Shown here piece by piece: positions 8,596 through 17,260 of a DNA stretch of 19,860 nt. The translations under genes and the position numbers were made by a program. The DNA lies in assembly GCA_003694355.1 (NCBI GenBank), contig RFKI01000001.1, forward strand, positions 1 through 19,860. The letters are read 5' to 3'. This DNA is from Bdellovibrio sp. GTDB lineage: Bacteria; Bdellovibrionota; Bdellovibrionia; Bdellovibrionales; UBA1609. The number at the start of each line of letters is the position of its first letter. Within the stretch, counting starts at the first letter, position 1. The notes beneath the pieces were generated by a model. It made no database searches. It was not told where the DNA came from and saw only the letters and a list, made by a program, of their open reading frames with translations.

Positions 8596-9359
8596 GGATC
8601 CTTCTTTGTTGTTTTCTTTTGTTCGCCCAGGTGGGATGTGCCAGTTTTGGAAAAAAGTTAAAGGCTTTTTTAAATGGTCAAGCAGCATTACCTCAACTGC
8701 CAAAAGGCTTAGAAGGTGACAAAAAAGCTACAGAAATACCAGGCCCCTCTTTTTCCAAGATGCCCAACTACAGATATGGATTGAAAAGGCAATACAAGAG
8801 AATGACACGAAAAAAACTGGAAGAAGAATCCATGTTAGATAGTCGTGCAGGGTCTTTATGGGTGATGGAAGGTCAGGGAGCTTATTTGTTTTCTCAAAAT
8901 ATCATGCGTCTTATAGGGGATCCCATTACAATTAAAATGGATGGAGATCCTAAGGAGCAAATGGAAGCTAAGGCTCAAGTTATTGCTAAACTTTTAAAAA
9001 AGTATGAGCAATTGAAACAAGAGGCTTTAGCGCGTTCTCTTGCAGCCAATGCCCCTAAAAAGGGCAGTAGAAAGGTGGTGGCTCCAAAACCGAAATCACC
9101 TTCTGAAAAGCCAGCAGGCGAAGAGAAAGATAAAAAAGCTTTCACAGTTAAAAATATTCCTGCGCGGATAGTGGAGCGAACTGTTGATGGCAATTATCGC
9201 ATTAAGGGCAGCCAGGTTTTTCTCATTGGGAAGAAAGAGTATAAAGCGATCGTGACGGGTGTGGTTCGTGCTGAAGATTTTTCAGAAGATGGGATTTCAG
9301 CTTCTAAGCTCATAGATCCTCGTTTTGATATTGTGAGCGTTAAGCGGAGGAAAGAATGA
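8592..9359 (+). CDS. flgH: Flagellar L-ring protein FlgH
   Basis: An outer-membrane lipoprotein forming the L ring, the bushing around the rod. A short signal sequence ends VGC (lipidated Cys16 expected); the -3 residue is Gln, which is atypical for a lipobox. GSLWVMEGQGAYLFSQNIMRL is the FlgH entry motif, followed by GDPITIKM, and the C-terminal VERTVDGNYRIKGSQVFLIG plus IVTGVVRAEDFSEDGISASK are diagnostic. Between them (about 115-185) is a charged helical, then Lys/Pro-rich segment replacing the usual low-complexity region. It overlaps flgA and flgI by four bases each, so the three are probably translationally coupled. Confidence 0.94.
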   Translation: MRILLCCFLLFAQVGCASFGKKLKAFLNGQAALPQLPKGLEGDKKATEIPGPSFSKMPNYRYGLKRQYKRMTRKKLEEESMLDSRAGSLWVMEGQGAYLFSQNIMRLIGDPITIKMDGDPKEQMEAKAQVIAKLLKKYEQLKQEALARSLAANAPKKGSRKVVAPKPKSPSEKPAGEEKDKKAFTVKNIPARIVERTVDGNYRIKGSQVFLIGKKEYKAIVTGVVRAEDFSEDGISASKLIDPRFDIVSVKRRKE

Positions 9360-10360
9360 AATACTTTGTTTTAAGTCAGGTTGTGGTTCTTATCTTGGCG
9401 ATTGCTTTGAATGTACAAGGTGCTCGTTTGAAGGACATTGTTAATATTCGTGGAGTTCGAAGCAATCAGCTTGTGGGGTATGGTATTGTGGTGGGGCTAA
9501 ATGGAAGTGGTGATGGTAAAATGGAGTTTACCAATAAAAGTATCTCTCGCATGTTGGACAAACTGGGGATGAAGATTAAAGGTCAAAATGCAGCCAGTAA
9601 AAATGTAGCAGCGGTTTTGGTCACAGCAGAGTTACCTCCCTTTGCTCGGGCGGGCAACAAAATTGATGTAACGGTAAATGCTATTGGGGATGCAAAAAGT
9701 TTAAAAGGAGGAACGTTGATCCAAACTCCTCTAAGGGCAGCCAATCAACAAATTTATGCTGTAGCTCAGGGGCCTCTTCTTGTGGGGGATGGAGGTAAGA
9801 GTTCGTTTTCTACGGTGGCCCGTATTCCTAATGGGGCGATGATTGAAAGAGATGTGGGAGAGAATTTTGCCAGCCGGAAAATGTTTCGTTTAACATTACA
9901 GAACCCTGATTTTACAACGGCTGCTCGTATTGCAAAACTGATCAATAGAGAGTTGGCTGGCAAGTTTGCAACAGCCCTTGATGCTTCCACAGTGGACCTT
10001 TTGACTCCTCCTTCTTTTGAAGGTAAGGGAGTTGAGCTTTTAGCCATGATTGAATCTCTGGAAGTATCTCCAGACCTTCGTGCAAAAGTGATTGTAAATG
10101 AAAAAACTGGAACCGTTGTGATAGGACATAATGTTAAAATATCAGAAGTAGCCATTTCTCATGGAGATATTTCTTTGTTGGTGAAAGGAAAAGGAAAGAA
10201 AGGGAAAGGGCAGTTTGTGTTTAAGTTAGATAAGTCAGCTAATGTGGGAGATATTGTGGATGCTTTAAATCGGTTAGGTGTGAAGCCTAAAGATTTAATC
10301 ACAATACTTCAGAGCATAAAAGCTGCAGGAGCGTTGCAAGGAGAATTGGAAGTTTTATAG
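9356..10360 (+). CDS. flgI: Flagellar P-ring protein FlgI
   Basis: A periplasmic P-ring subunit. The signal peptide runs to about residue 22 (VQGA). The conserved start RLKDIVNIRGVRSNQLVGYG is followed by GLNGSGDG, KNVAAVLVTAELPPFARAGN and GDAKSLKGGTL. The C-terminus has VIGHNVKISEVAISHGDISL and then ALNRLGVKPKDLITILQSIK-AAGALQGELE, all hallmark FlgI blocks. At 334 residues it is somewhat shorter than the 365 of E. coli; the loss is mainly before the final helix, where a Lys/Gly-rich segment (KGKGKKGKGQF) sits. The last codons may contain the promoter of the downstream non-coding RNA. Confidence 0.97.
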   Translation: MKYFVLSQVVVLILAIALNVQGARLKDIVNIRGVRSNQLVGYGIVVGLNGSGDGKMEFTNKSISRMLDKLGMKIKGQNAASKNVAAVLVTAELPPFARAGNKIDVTVNAIGDAKSLKGGTLIQTPLRAANQQIYAVAQGPLLVGDGGKSSFSTVARIPNGAMIERDVGENFASRKMFRLTLQNPDFTTAARIAKLINRELAGKFATALDASTVDLLTPPSFEGKGVELLAMIESLEVSPDLRAKVIVNEKTGTVVIGHNVKISEVAISHGDISLLVKGKGKKGKGQFVFKLDKSANVGDIVDALNRLGVKPKDLITILQSIKAAGALQGELEVL

Positions 10361-10361
10361 A
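10334..10361 (+). promoter_or_regulatory. Possible promoter of the flgI-flgJ intergenic RNA
   Basis: TTGCAA (10334-10339), 16-base spacer and TATAGA (10356-10361) are each four of six matches to the sigma-70 boxes. This would start transcription near 10367-10368, just at the 5' foot of the first hairpin. The match is weak. The RNA could instead be processed from the flgI message. Confidence 0.3.
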
Positions 10362-10366
10362 TTTTT

Positions 10367-10550
10367 GGATTTCCAACATAGGATGTGTTGGAATCTGGGG
10401 GTGATGAGCTAAAGAGCGTGTACCAAGGATGGTCAAGAGGCCCAGTTTCTCGCAGGAAACATCGTCGAAGCCAAGGATTGGTTTTGCCGAATTTGCCAAA
10501 AGTGCAGGATGCACAAAAAGTTCTTGGCTCATCCACCCTTTTTTATTTTT
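10367..10550 (+). ncRNA. Candidate CsrA-binding regulatory RNA between flgI and flgJ
   Basis: This segment has no supported reading frame but is densely structured. Five short hairpins carry GGA in or at the loop: 10371-10393 (TTCCAACA/TGTTGGAA, loop TAGGATG), 10422-10433 (ACCA-AGGA-TGGT), 10445-10460 (GTTTC/GAAAC, GGA at the loop edge), 10468-10484 (AAGCCAA-GGA-TTGGTTT, one G-U pair) and 10502-10514 (GTGCA-GGA-TGCAC). A long helix closes the last four: 10397-10412 pairs with 10524-10540 with a single bulged C, and TTTTTTATTTTT follows directly. GGA-loop hairpins ending in an intrinsic terminator are the architecture of CsrB/RsmZ-type CsrA sponges. csrA and fliW lie downstream in the same cluster. 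It could act as a free sponge or as a CsrA-sensitive attenuator before flgJ. I see no sequence match to a known sRNA. Confidence 0.55.
10397..10550 (+). terminator. Closing helix and poly-T terminator of the intergenic RNA
   Basis: GGGGGTGATGAGCTAA (10397-10412) pairs with TTGGCTCATCCACCCTT (10524-10540), with C10534 bulged and G-U pairs at the outer end, immediately followed by TTTTTTATTTTT. The loop is over 100 bases and itself folded. flgJ starts 15 bases later, so either readthrough is substantial or termination is regulated. Confidence 0.5.
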
Positions 10551-10564
10551 GAAAGGATGACTCC

Positions 10565-11227
10565 TTGAAGCCTTTACCTTTATATAAACCTTTAAACTCT
10601 TCTCTAGAAAAAAGCCGTCAATTGCAGCAAAAAAAATTGGATCAAAAGTTGCGAAAGGCTTCTCAAATGTATGAGGAGCAGTTTTTAAGAGAAATGGTAA
10701 GGGCCATGAGAAAAACAGTAAATAGAGCTCATGCGCCGTCCATGGCTGAAAAAATTTTTGAACAAAAGCTAGATGAAAAATATGTGGAGCAATGGGGGGA
10801 ACGGGGAGGTATTGGACTTGGAGAAATGATTTATCGGCAATTAAAAGAACGCTTTTATTCTGTGCCTCTACGGCCGCCTAAAGGGCCTTTGCCAGTAGAA
10901 AAAGGGCGTATTTACCAGTTAAAAGGAGACTCCCCACAAAAAACTTTTCTTCTAAAGCCAACTGGAACACAAAAGAAGACTTCAGCAATTCAGGCACCAT
11001 GGGATGGGCGTGTTTCTTTGATTCGTCGCGGAGATGATGGGAGTGTTTTTGTGCGTCTAGACCATGAACAAGACGGAGTGTCATCAGTCTTTCATTATCA
11101 GGGAAAAGTGAATATCCAGGTGGGTGAAAAAGTGATTGCCGGACAAAAGTTAGGAGAGCTTTTGAATATGGAAGATGGTCGAGGTTTAGGCTGGAAGGTG
11201 ACAGAAATTGACTCTCTTCACGGATAA
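10565..11227 (+). CDS. flgJ: FlgJ-like rod-binding protein with degenerate LytM domain
   Basis: Residues 25-100 are the FlgJ rod-binding domain: KASQMYEEQFLREMVRAMRK, then FEQKLDEKYVEQW and ERGGIGLGEMIYRQL, which cap and guide rod assembly. In place of the glucosaminidase domain of enteric FlgJ, the C-terminal 80 residues resemble an M23/LytM fold (APWDGRVSLIRRGDDGSVFV, then DGVSSVFHYQGKV and VGEKVIAGQKLGEL). Neither the HxxxD nor the HxH zinc motif is present, so it is probably a non-catalytic peptidoglycan-interacting or scaffold module. The start is TTG at 10565 with AAAGGA upstream; the bases AAGGA and TCCTT around the start can pair and bury both. Confidence 0.85.
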   Translation: MKPLPLYKPLNSSLEKSRQLQQKKLDQKLRKASQMYEEQFLREMVRAMRKTVNRAHAPSMAEKIFEQKLDEKYVEQWGERGGIGLGEMIYRQLKERFYSVPLRPPKGPLPVEKGRIYQLKGDSPQKTFLLKPTGTQKKTSAIQAPWDGRVSLIRRGDDGSVFVRLDHEQDGVSSVFHYQGKVNIQVGEKVIAGQKLGELLNMEDGRGLGWKVTEIDSLHG

Positions 11228-14859: not shown

Positions 14860-15096
14860 ATGTTGGTTTTAACTCGAAAATTAGGAGAAAGCATTGCCAT
14901 TGATGATCACATCAAGATTCGGGTTGTTCAAATCAAAGGCAAGCAGGTTCGTTTAGGCATTGAGGCTCCCAAAGACACTAAAATTCATCGAGAAGAAGTT
15001 TATCTGGCCATTCAATCTCAGAATGCTCAGTCTGCCAATACTAGCTCAGAGAGTACAAGAGCGGTTTCTGAATTGCTAAAGAGCAAAGAGTCTTGA
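14860..15096 (+). CDS. csrA: Carbon storage / translational regulator CsrA
   Basis: A dimeric RNA-binding protein that recognises GGA in hairpin loops and usually blocks ribosome binding. MLVLTRKLGESIAIDDHIKI and then IRVVQIKGKQVRLGIEAPKD match the family closely, including the N-terminal beta-1 strand (Leu4, Arg6) and the VRLGIEAP strand. At 78 residues it is slightly longer than the E. coli protein because of a Ser/Asn-rich tail of about 20 residues. AAGGAG lies five bases before the ATG. Its neighbour fliW encodes its protein antagonist, and a candidate RNA antagonist lies upstream between flgI and flgJ. Confidence 0.97.
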   Translation: MLVLTRKLGESIAIDDHIKIRVVQIKGKQVRLGIEAPKDTKIHREEVYLAIQSQNAQSANTSSESTRAVSELLKSKES

Positions 15097-15248
15097 TTTT
15101 TTAATTCCATCTTTGATTTTGCGCCGAGTCTATTTGACGCAATACATCTTTTGCTGTTTCGAGTTAGAAAAAATTTCAATTTTAACCCTATTTAGACTTG
15201 AAGTGTCTTCTCTTTGTGGGCATCCTCTATATATGGACGGGAGGCAAA

Positions 15249-15770
15249 ATGTTAGTACAAACGTCTAGGTTTGGCCCTTTAGATGTTCAGGAAGAAGACC
15301 TTATTCATTTCCCTGAGGGGCTATTGGGGTTTGATAATTTAACTCGATTTGTTTTGTTAGATGACCCCAATGAGGATATTTTTGCTTGGCTGCAAAGTTG
15401 TGAAGAACCCTCTGTGGCTTTTCCTGTTTTAGAGCCAGAAATTTTTATGGAATCTTATAATGTGAACCTTACTAAAAGCGATATGGAAGCCATCAAGGTG
15501 TCTTCGCCATCAGAGTGCCAGTTTTTTGTGATTATAACAATCCCTGAAGATCCTAAAGAGATGACAGCCAATCTAAAGGCTCCCATTGTGATTAACTCCA
15601 AAGAGCGCTTGGCAAAGCAGTGTGTTCTTCAGGATAATCGCTTGGCCATTAGAGAACCCATTTTTAAGAGGTTGCAACAAAAGGTTGTTCCTCGGAGTTC
15701 AAAAGATCAGGATGCTCCAAAGAAAAATCTTTCTTCTTCTGTGCGTCCTCATAAAGAGTCAGAACTTTAA
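15249..15770 (+). CDS. fliW: Flagellar assembly factor FliW (CsrA antagonist)
   Basis: FliW binds CsrA allosterically, and flagellin competes for FliW, tying CsrA activity to filament assembly. Motifs: RFGPLDVQEEDLIHFPEGLL (the FPEGLLGF signature), WLQSCEEPSVAFPVLEP, and TANLKAPIVINSKERLAKQC. I start it at ATG 15249 (173 residues) with GGGAGG four bases upstream, because an in-frame TTG at 15198 adds 17 residues unlike the family. The C-terminal 30 residues are basic and Ser-rich, an extension beyond the usual 150. No flagellin gene is in the window. Confidence 0.95.
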   Translation: MLVQTSRFGPLDVQEEDLIHFPEGLLGFDNLTRFVLLDDPNEDIFAWLQSCEEPSVAFPVLEPEIFMESYNVNLTKSDMEAIKVSSPSECQFFVIITIPEDPKEMTANLKAPIVINSKERLAKQCVLQDNRLAIREPIFKRLQQKVVPRSSKDQDAPKKNLSSSVRPHKESEL

Positions 15771-16510: not shown

Positions 16511-17260
16511 ATGCGGCGCTATTGGGTGAAAGAAGATAGCTTTGGTGAAGGAAAGGTGACTTTGCGGGGAGAGGATTTTCATCACATTTGTGAGGTTTGT
16601 CGACGTCAGATAGGGCATCGTTTTGAAGTTTTAAGAAAAGGAGAGGCTTTTCTTGTGGAACTTGTTGCCAGAAAGAAAAAGGAGGCTGAGGCCCGCATTA
16701 TTGAAAGGCGGCCTTTGCCTTCTTTAAAACCGCCGTTTATTCATCTGGCGCTCAGTGTTCCTCGATTTTCCACCATGGATAAGGTTGTGGAAAAATCTGT
16801 GGAATTAGGGGTTTATGAGGTTTGTCCCTTCTTCTCTGATTATAGTTTTGTTAAAGACCTTAAAAAAATAGGGGGTTCTCGCCAAAAACGATGGGAAAAA
16901 ATAGTGCGTTCTGCAACAGAACAAACAGGGCGGGCAGACCTGATGCCTATACAGCCTCCTGTTAGTCTGGAAGTTCTTTTAGATCAAATTAACCCTTCAC
17001 AGGGTATTCTGGGTCTGTTTTTCTACGAAGGTCAGGGGGGCATGGACCTTCGTCAAGCTTTAGAAAAGGTCAAGGAGGTTTCCTTGAAGAAAGATGTGTA
17101 TTTATTTATTGGAGGAGAAGGCGGTTTTTCCCAACGGGAAGTGTCTTTGTTAGGTCAAAAGGGGTTAGAGCCCATTTCTTTAGGAGATCAGGTTTTAAGG
17201 GTTGAAACCGCTTGCACCGCAACCATAGCCATCATAAAGTATGAATTGGGCCTTATATAA
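16511..17260 (+). CDS. rsmE: 16S rRNA m3U1498 methyltransferase RsmE
   Basis: It methylates N3 of U1498 in 16S rRNA using S-adenosylmethionine; a SPOUT-fold enzyme with a C-terminal trefoil knot. An N-terminal PUA-like part (HHICEVCRRQIGHRFEVL) is followed by STMDKVVEKSVELGVYEVCP, RSATEQTGRADLMP, and the knot motifs LFIGGEGGFSQREV and ISLGDQVLRVETA. The family's IGPEGG reads IGGEGG here. At 249 residues it is normal. AGGAGG lies four bases before the ATG at 16511. Confidence 0.95.
   Translation: MRRYWVKEDSFGEGKVTLRGEDFHHICEVCRRQIGHRFEVLRKGEAFLVELVARKKKEAEARIIERRPLPSLKPPFIHLALSVPRFSTMDKVVEKSVELGVYEVCPFFSDYSFVKDLKKIGGSRQKRWEKIVRSATEQTGRADLMPIQPPVSLEVLLDQINPSQGILGLFFYEGQGGMDLRQALEKVKEVSLKKDVYLFIGGEGGFSQREVSLLGQKGLEPISLGDQVLRVETACTATIAIIKYELGLI

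Follow-up and report, generated by a model that had tools for sequence, protein, structure and literature searches.

The flagellar locus

The stretch of DNA analysed here (the window) is 19,860 nucleotides long and corresponds to contig C108 of its genome. It carries a flagellar cluster on one strand, with flgF/G-type genes, flgA, flgH, flgI, flgJ, flgM, flgN, flgK, flgL, csrA and fliW. Pfam matches identify flgH, flgI, flgJ, flgM, flgN, csrA and fliW, and the remaining gene names were read from translations. An earlier note, made from the sequence of the window, had placed both csrA and fliW in this cluster, and the Pfam assignments confirm this. The note also described a gap of 204 bases between flgI and flgJ, and this is borne out by direct reading: flgI ends at 10360, the flgJ open reading frame starts at 10565, and 10361-10564 lie between. 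The gap contains an RNA element, the subject of this analysis, about 4.6 kb upstream of fliW (Table 1). A single copy of the element is present in the genome (1.89 Mb in 325 contigs, about 83% complete), which rules out a repeat or mobile element. At the other end of the window, 257-2119 encodes a protein of 620 residues with near-identical repeats and propeller/BNR Pfam matches.

Table 1. Positions of the RNA element, its parts and the genes considered with it in the window
Feature	Position	Strand	Evidence and remarks
flgI, P-ring protein, upstream neighbour	9356-10360	+	Pfam FlgI PF02119, E 2.3e-115
Candidate -35, TTGCAA	10334-10339	+	Spacer of 16 to candidate -10
Candidate -10, TATAGA, overlapping flgI stop codon	10356-10361	+	Position relative to TAnnAT-type boxes of relatives; weak
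Small RNA element, APsRNA1 homologue	10367-10550	+	R2 match 10368-10545, 102.4 bits; same ends with R1
Hairpin 1, GGA 10381	10371-10392	+	Both-side changes in 6 of 7 aligned pairs; present in window's own fold
Closing helix, 5' strand	10396-10414	+	Covariation; paired from 10397 in window's own fold
Hairpin 2, ACCA-AGGA-TGGT, GGA 10427	10422-10433	+	GGA in 33 of 34 aligned rows; absent from window's lowest-energy fold
Hairpin 3, GTTTC-TCGCAG-GAAAC, GGA 10455 at loop edge	10445-10460	+	GGA in 34 of 34 rows; stem changes one-sided only
Hairpin 4, AGCCA-AGGA-TTGGTT, GGA 10475	10469-10483	+	Both-side changes in 5 of 6 aligned pairs; present in window's own fold
Hairpin 5, GTGCA-GGA-TGCAC, GGA 10507	10502-10514	+	99.4% of cells paired; absent from window's lowest-energy fold
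Closing helix, 3' strand	10522-10540	+	Covariation; window's own fold
T tract TTTTTTATTTTT after closing helix, probable terminator	10539-10550	+	Read directly; HD100 RNA ends in matching tract
flgJ, downstream neighbour, rod-binding and peptidase M23 domains	10565-11227	+	Pfam PF10135, PF01551; TTG start
csrA, proposed ligand	14860-15096	+	Pfam PF02599, E 5.2e-26; L4, R6, R44, N55 present
fliW, CsrA protein antagonist, start codon uncertain	15198-15770	+	Pfam PF02623, E 3.1e-41

Folding of the element in the window

The earlier note had read the gap as a candidate CsrA-sequestering RNA, built around GGA trinucleotides at 10381, 10427, 10455, 10475 and 10507. All five are at these positions, three of them within AGGATG, and the gap holds two more, at 10367 and 10390. 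Folded in silico, 10360-10560 reached -68.3 kcal/mol (z -3.30), and none of 200 shuffled sequences was equally stable. The corresponding value for 10367-10550 was -67.3, compared to -48.8 ± 4.3 for shuffled sequences, with 0 of 1000 as stable. As predicted, a long helix abuts the T tract at 10539-10550: 10397 pairs with 10540 in the fold of 10367-10550, which has 23 outer pairs.

Placement of GGA in or at the loops of five hairpins was a further claim. It stands in that the arrangement is conserved in relatives, but in the window GGA 10455 lies at a loop edge, and hairpins 2 and 5 are both missing from the lowest-energy and centroid folds. The latter two hairpins had been called near-ideal CsrA ligands; the sequences are indeed there, but neither hairpin appears in the lowest-energy fold, where parts of hairpins 2 and 5 are paired to each other (bases within 10421-10424 to bases within 10507-10511). 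Five of the seven GGAs (10381, 10390, 10427, 10475 and 10507, with 10455 outside the loop) can be placed in the loop of a local hairpin whose stem has at least 4 pairs, a count matched by 10 of 1000 shuffled sequences. In the minimum-energy fold, hairpin loops contain two GGAs, a count matched by 43 of 1000. For this one sequence, the proposed comparison of GGA loops with shuffled sequence is thus a weaker test. Taken alone, the single sequence would be suggestive only, and comparison with relatives decides.

Conservation and covariation among relatives

The relatives compared belong to the Bdellovibrionales. The end of flgI was placed in 82 locus records, from which 63 units were cut. The 19 left out comprise 6 duplicates, 2 near-copies of one unit (L068), 2 at contig ends and 9 that are diverged, displaced or gapless. 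Three units (L031, L052 and L073) end prematurely at a false T tract and are still included in the 63-unit counts. For alignment A1, 34 of the 63 units were picked for diversity, with the window included and L031 re-cut; alignment A2 contains 23. Among those listed, the gaps of relatives share one order of elements: hairpin 1, a closing strand, CCA-nGGA-nGG, GTTTC-nnGCAG-GAAAC, CCAAGGATTGG, GTGCAGGATGCAC (a position where GCG/CGC or GCA/TGC versions also occur), the other closing strand, CCCC and a T tract.

In the 34 aligned rows, 88.3% of the cells in the named structure of 40 pairs are paired, compared to at most 46.3% in controls with slid partners. Cells with changes on both sides number 122 (44.4 ± 6.4 when shuffled, reached by 0 of 500 shuffles) and pairs with such changes number 19 (13.4 ± 1.8, reached by 1 of 500), with the caveat that kinship can lift counts over shuffles and that a structure derived from the alignment favours itself. 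This caveat is answered in part by the slid-partner controls and by the variety of the changes seen. Unaided, RNAalifold proposed 25 pairs, 14 of them with both-side changes. The closing helix (helices 2 and 3 of the alignment) has 90.4% and 88.6% of its cells paired and both-side changes in 6 of 13 pairs. In these 34 rows, hairpins 2 and 3 vary too little in their stems for a covariation test. Judged from the aligned sequences, comparative support is strongest for the predicted hairpin 5, the stem of which occurs as GUG/CAC, GCG/CGC or GCA/UGC among relatives.

Conservation is concentrated on the GGA trinucleotides. GGA is found at all five positions in 32 of the 34 rows and at four positions in the other 2, and the GGA columns are 97.8% identical; identity in the remaining 184 well-filled columns is 67.2%. 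Linkers between the hairpins also carry conserved bases. The motif CA(N)GGANG occurs in all 63 units, with a mean of 2.97 compared to 0.28 in shuffled sequences. A stricter motif, [AT]CANGGANG[AT], is present in 45 of the 63 and absent from the window. Several GGA motifs in conserved hairpins are thus found across the relatives, and the lowest-energy fold of the window shows part of this arrangement.

Model searches and distribution

Two covariance models were built, R1 with the window included and R2 from 23 sequences outside the window's family. A model built from the flgI-flgJ gaps of relatives had been suggested as a check, and R2, run with filters off, finds the element of the window (Table 1; E 2.8e-26, a rough value); compensatory changes are present in several stems. 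Of 52 matches in the window, the next best scored 16.1 bits (E 0.0011; minus strand, 16673-16796), lies inside an open reading frame and was taken as chance.

We surveyed 98 genomes, including the window's own, with R1 at a cut-off of E ≤ 0.1. Matches were found in 76 of the 98, spanning 41 of the 52 genera searched; we discounted weak hits on G011:C3 (19.5 bits) and G061:C7 (17.1 bits). A blastn search with the window gap gave matches in 45 of the 98 genomes at E ≤ 0.01, mostly just downstream of flgI, and the few elsewhere were attributed to chance. One match, at 76% and E 3e-8, is to 499389-499475 of Bdellovibrio bacteriovorus HD100 (G071). Four blastn hits in Bdellovibrio-type genomes were considered as second genomic copies and rejected, as on our reading of the DNA they fall in Lon-like coding sequence.

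FlgI was matched in 79 of the 98 genomes, CsrA in 90 and FliW in 78. The RNA is present in 75 of the 79 genomes with FlgI, compared to 1 of the 19 without. In 74 of the 76 matching genomes, the hit shares the strand of the FlgI match and follows it downstream at a distance of 2-268 nt (median 50); in the two exceptions, the RNA is on another contig (G039) or FlgI has no match (G012). This shared position, together with the covariation, supports the reading of the gap as a CsrA-type RNA. Four genomes with FlgI have no R1 match. Two of these contain diverged copies (G053 and G085; 38.3 and 36.1 bits with filters off), and in a third (G043) FlgI itself is matched only in part. In the fourth, G077, which is flagellated, flgJ directly follows flgI and no match above noise was found there.

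The RNA, FliW and CsrA co-occur in 70 of the 98 genomes. The RNA was found without a FliW match in 6 genomes, all 61-88% complete, 5 of which also gave no CsrA match. CsrA was found without the RNA and without FliW in 11 genomes, all of them small-genome relatives lacking FlgI (G001, G013, G014, G017, G020, G022, G028, G029, G030, G036 and G042), with CsrA scores mostly lower than elsewhere. Because these genomes keep CsrA alone, the RNA is not required by CsrA, and the flagellar linkage could be one of position alone. Extending the search to the phylum gave matches (E ≤ 0.01) in 111 of 368 genomes. The same order accounts for 107 of these (own included); 3 belong to another family of the class (G269-G271, with the element again between flgI and flgJ) and one, G325, lies outside the class.

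A transcript in B. bacteriovorus HD100

RNA-seq of B. bacteriovorus HD100 defined a small RNA, APsRNA1, of 207 nt at 499,375-499,581 on the plus strand (Karunker and others 2013, PMC3627812). Starts in this dataset come from mapped 5' ends and ends were estimated from coverage; no FliA promoter is marked for APsRNA1. Attack-phase cells gave 50,451 RPKM for this RNA, 16-fold more than the 3,181 of growth phase (PMC3627812). We confirmed the coordinate frame with a c-di-GMP-I riboswitch, which in our copy of the genome (G071) is at 1,073,868-1,073,951 on the minus strand, inside the published merRNA span of 1,073,741-1,074,185 (PMC3627812). In this frame, 18 bases of the APsRNA1 stretch precede the first loop GGA, and its 3' end falls in the T tract that follows CTCCCC. 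The sequence TACAAT ends 5 bases upstream of the start, and the fold of the 207-nt RNA has a z score of -4.31.

APsRNA1 is therefore the HD100 copy of the window's element, in the same place between flgI and flgJ. We conclude that the element is genuine and ancient, and that it is transcribed in at least this relative. That no RNA of this kind had been described is accordingly incorrect, since APsRNA1 was listed in 2013, without a function (PMC3627812). As far as the available text goes, the published account gives no CsrA link (the main text does not contain the term 'CsrA') and no outside homologue, the attack-phase RNAs being said to have no significant homology outside B. bacteriovorus (PMC3627812). 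Our profile search contradicts the latter statement for APsRNA1. No link of APsRNA1 to CsrA was found in titles or the starts of abstracts among the matches listed for open PubMed Central papers. GGA content is near expectation in five of the other six attack-phase RNAs of HD100 (APsRNA2-APsRNA7); APsRNA4 has 4, compared to 1.6 expected.

With its own mapped 5' end and a discrete product of 207 nt, the HD100 element is a free-standing gene for a small RNA, located inside the flagellar cluster. The earlier description as an in-operon element is thus incomplete. The window's element has a T tract after the closing helix but no consensus promoter or terminator, and a scan there for a local terminator hairpin found none; the HD100 copy is a discrete transcript. 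The element would be transcribed in the window's own organism as well.

The promoter region

In the window, the sequence upstream of the element is flgI coding sequence, and a consensus scan of it revealed no consensus promoter; candidate boxes are given in Table 1. Promoter features were counted over 62 units. In 52 of these, a TAnnAT-type box is located between -45 and -20 relative to the first GGA. In 25 of the 62, we found an inverted repeat, TGTTTC-N5-GANACA, upstream of the RNA (allowing up to 2 mismatches in 11), and in 23 of those 25 it is exactly 25 bases before the TAnnAT-type box. HD100 provides an example at G071:C1:499339-499355. The HD100 genome contains five exact instances of the pattern, compared to 0 and 1 for the reversed control, and inspection of their neighbours revealed no clear common theme. 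The repeat is probably a regulator site. It is a different inverted repeat from that of CsrB/RsmZ regulation, where the promoter depends on BarA-UvrY or GacS-GacA.

CsrA and FliW

CsrA of the window retains L4, R6 and R44, which we take to be RNA-binding residues. On this assumption, the genome encodes a CsrA with its RNA-binding residues intact. Another residue, N55, is named for FliW binding in a published study (PMC13407953). We compared it in the 12 usable CsrAs obtained from 20 stretches of relatives. N55 and its tail are lacking in the four from genomes without FliW (G013, G020, G028 and G036), and N55 is present in the eight from genomes with FliW (G002, G004, G015, G050, G053, G055, G071 and G077). 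As a sequence pattern, this fits with FliW also controlling CsrA in the genomes that bear the RNA.

A proposed CsrA sponge

Taken together, we consider it highly probable that a free-standing small RNA gene, homologous to APsRNA1, occupies the gap, and that its product sequesters CsrA as a sponge. The folded RNA would consist of an outer hairpin and a domain that is closed by the long 5'-3' helix, which ends at the T tract. Each of the five GGA hairpins would offer one CsrA site, for a capacity of two CsrA dimers or more. In attack phase, the abundant RNA of HD100 would titrate CsrA off mRNAs; as the RNA falls in growth phase, CsrA would be freed. FliW would antagonize the same CsrA via a separate route. 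In this way, attack-phase abundance of the RNA may restrain CsrA and contribute to the attack/growth switch.

Several GGA hairpins on one small RNA are also found in CsrB/CsrC and RsmX/Y/Z, with CsrA sequestration being the function proposed here. In contrast to CsrB and RsmZ, this RNA sits in a flagellar cluster and its host carries FliW. The CsrB/Rsm design has a separate terminator hairpin at the 3' end, unlike the long closing helix found here. The number of GGAs differs too, with 22 cited for E. coli CsrB (PMC7652899) and a median of 7 in our 63 units. Rfam returned no match at gathering score in the window or in a 9.5-kb flagellar stretch of HD100. No Csr/Rsm family is among the Rfam matches in the window, down to E 10 for 10200-10700, or in five relatives; the weak hits are almost all to microRNA or snoRNA families, far below cut-offs.

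The pairing of a CsrA sponge RNA with FliW in the same bacteria has been considered rare or absent. The nearest parallel is in Campylobacter jejuni, where flaA mRNA and FliW together are reported to titrate CsrA (PMC4894983), so that RNA and FliW act against CsrA in a flagellar setting, as proposed here. As far as that account goes, the flaA element forms an mRNA leader and carries two GGA hexaloops, whereas ours is a non-coding RNA with five GGA hairpins; the CA(N)GGANG motif resembles the CANGGANG hexaloop called high-affinity there (PMC4894983). A wider proposal, towards which we lean only slightly, is that sponge and FliW jointly restrain one CsrA across the whole order, predators included, with the level of the sponge helping to throw the attack/growth switch. 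This would be the first natural case of dual control by non-coding RNA and FliW, and the sponge family would have arisen apart from CsrB/RsmZ. CsrA, FliW and a CsrA-type RNA with five sites are all encoded in a single compact locus, and a specific hypothesis is now offered for a small RNA listed without function. Transcription of the RNA in a laboratory predator, HD100, is established, so the sponge question is testable at once.

Alternative explanations

The RNA might play both roles, acting in trans as a sponge and also insulating or attenuating the genes downstream. The data for a sponge and for an attenuator also support this reading, and a terminated small RNA in a same-strand cluster is expected to lower read-through; we regard it as a real but less probable option. 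An element acting purely in cis is unlikely. Here, CsrA would set how much transcription reaches flgJ-flgM-flgN-flgK-flgL-csrA-fliW through a CsrA-responsive terminator or attenuator: because the closing helix forms a terminator-like end around the GGA hairpins, binding of CsrA could alter termination. The conserved position in the cluster and the short distance from T tract to flgJ start codon (14 bases in the window) are in line with this. However, the RNA of HD100 is a discrete transcript of 207 nt for which a separate start is mapped; in HD100, G058 and G069 a second terminator-like hairpin, recognized by eye, directly follows and flgJ starts further on; and GGA conservation exceeds what attenuation alone needs.

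More improbable still is a structured RNA of other purpose, such as a base-pairing small RNA or the ligand of a protein other than CsrA. Conserved linker bases between the hairpins would suit such an RNA, but the peaks of conservation are the GGAs of five separate hairpins, a CsrA signature, and csrA is in the same cluster. A small coding gene or chance spacer can be dismissed, being largely refuted by covariation: several relatives have an open reading frame running from the flgI stop across the gap and the window has reverse-strand frames of 75 and 77 codons, but the frames listed for the window and for many relatives include no gap-crossing one, unit lengths vary freely, and paired changes preserve the helices.

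Other GGA-rich loci

Two further loci came to light in the searches. One (L151; G012:C127:4512-4661, minus strand) is a weak R1 hit of 22.6 bits near the start of an open reading frame, with several GGA motifs; it looks like an mRNA leader and is perhaps a CsrA target. The other (L150; G325:C26:5479-5869, minus strand), from another class, contains a run of many GGA motifs in what appear by eye to be hairpins, followed by a strong hairpin. No flagellar gene was seen in the 3.5 kb covered around it, and on our reading of translations it sits downstream of two tandem DksA/TraR-like genes. L150 is possibly an independent CsrA-type RNA. Among 35 genomes of its family, relatives of L150 were found in G323 (G323:C395, L187 and L189; 76-90% in two pieces) and, over 26 bases, in G338.
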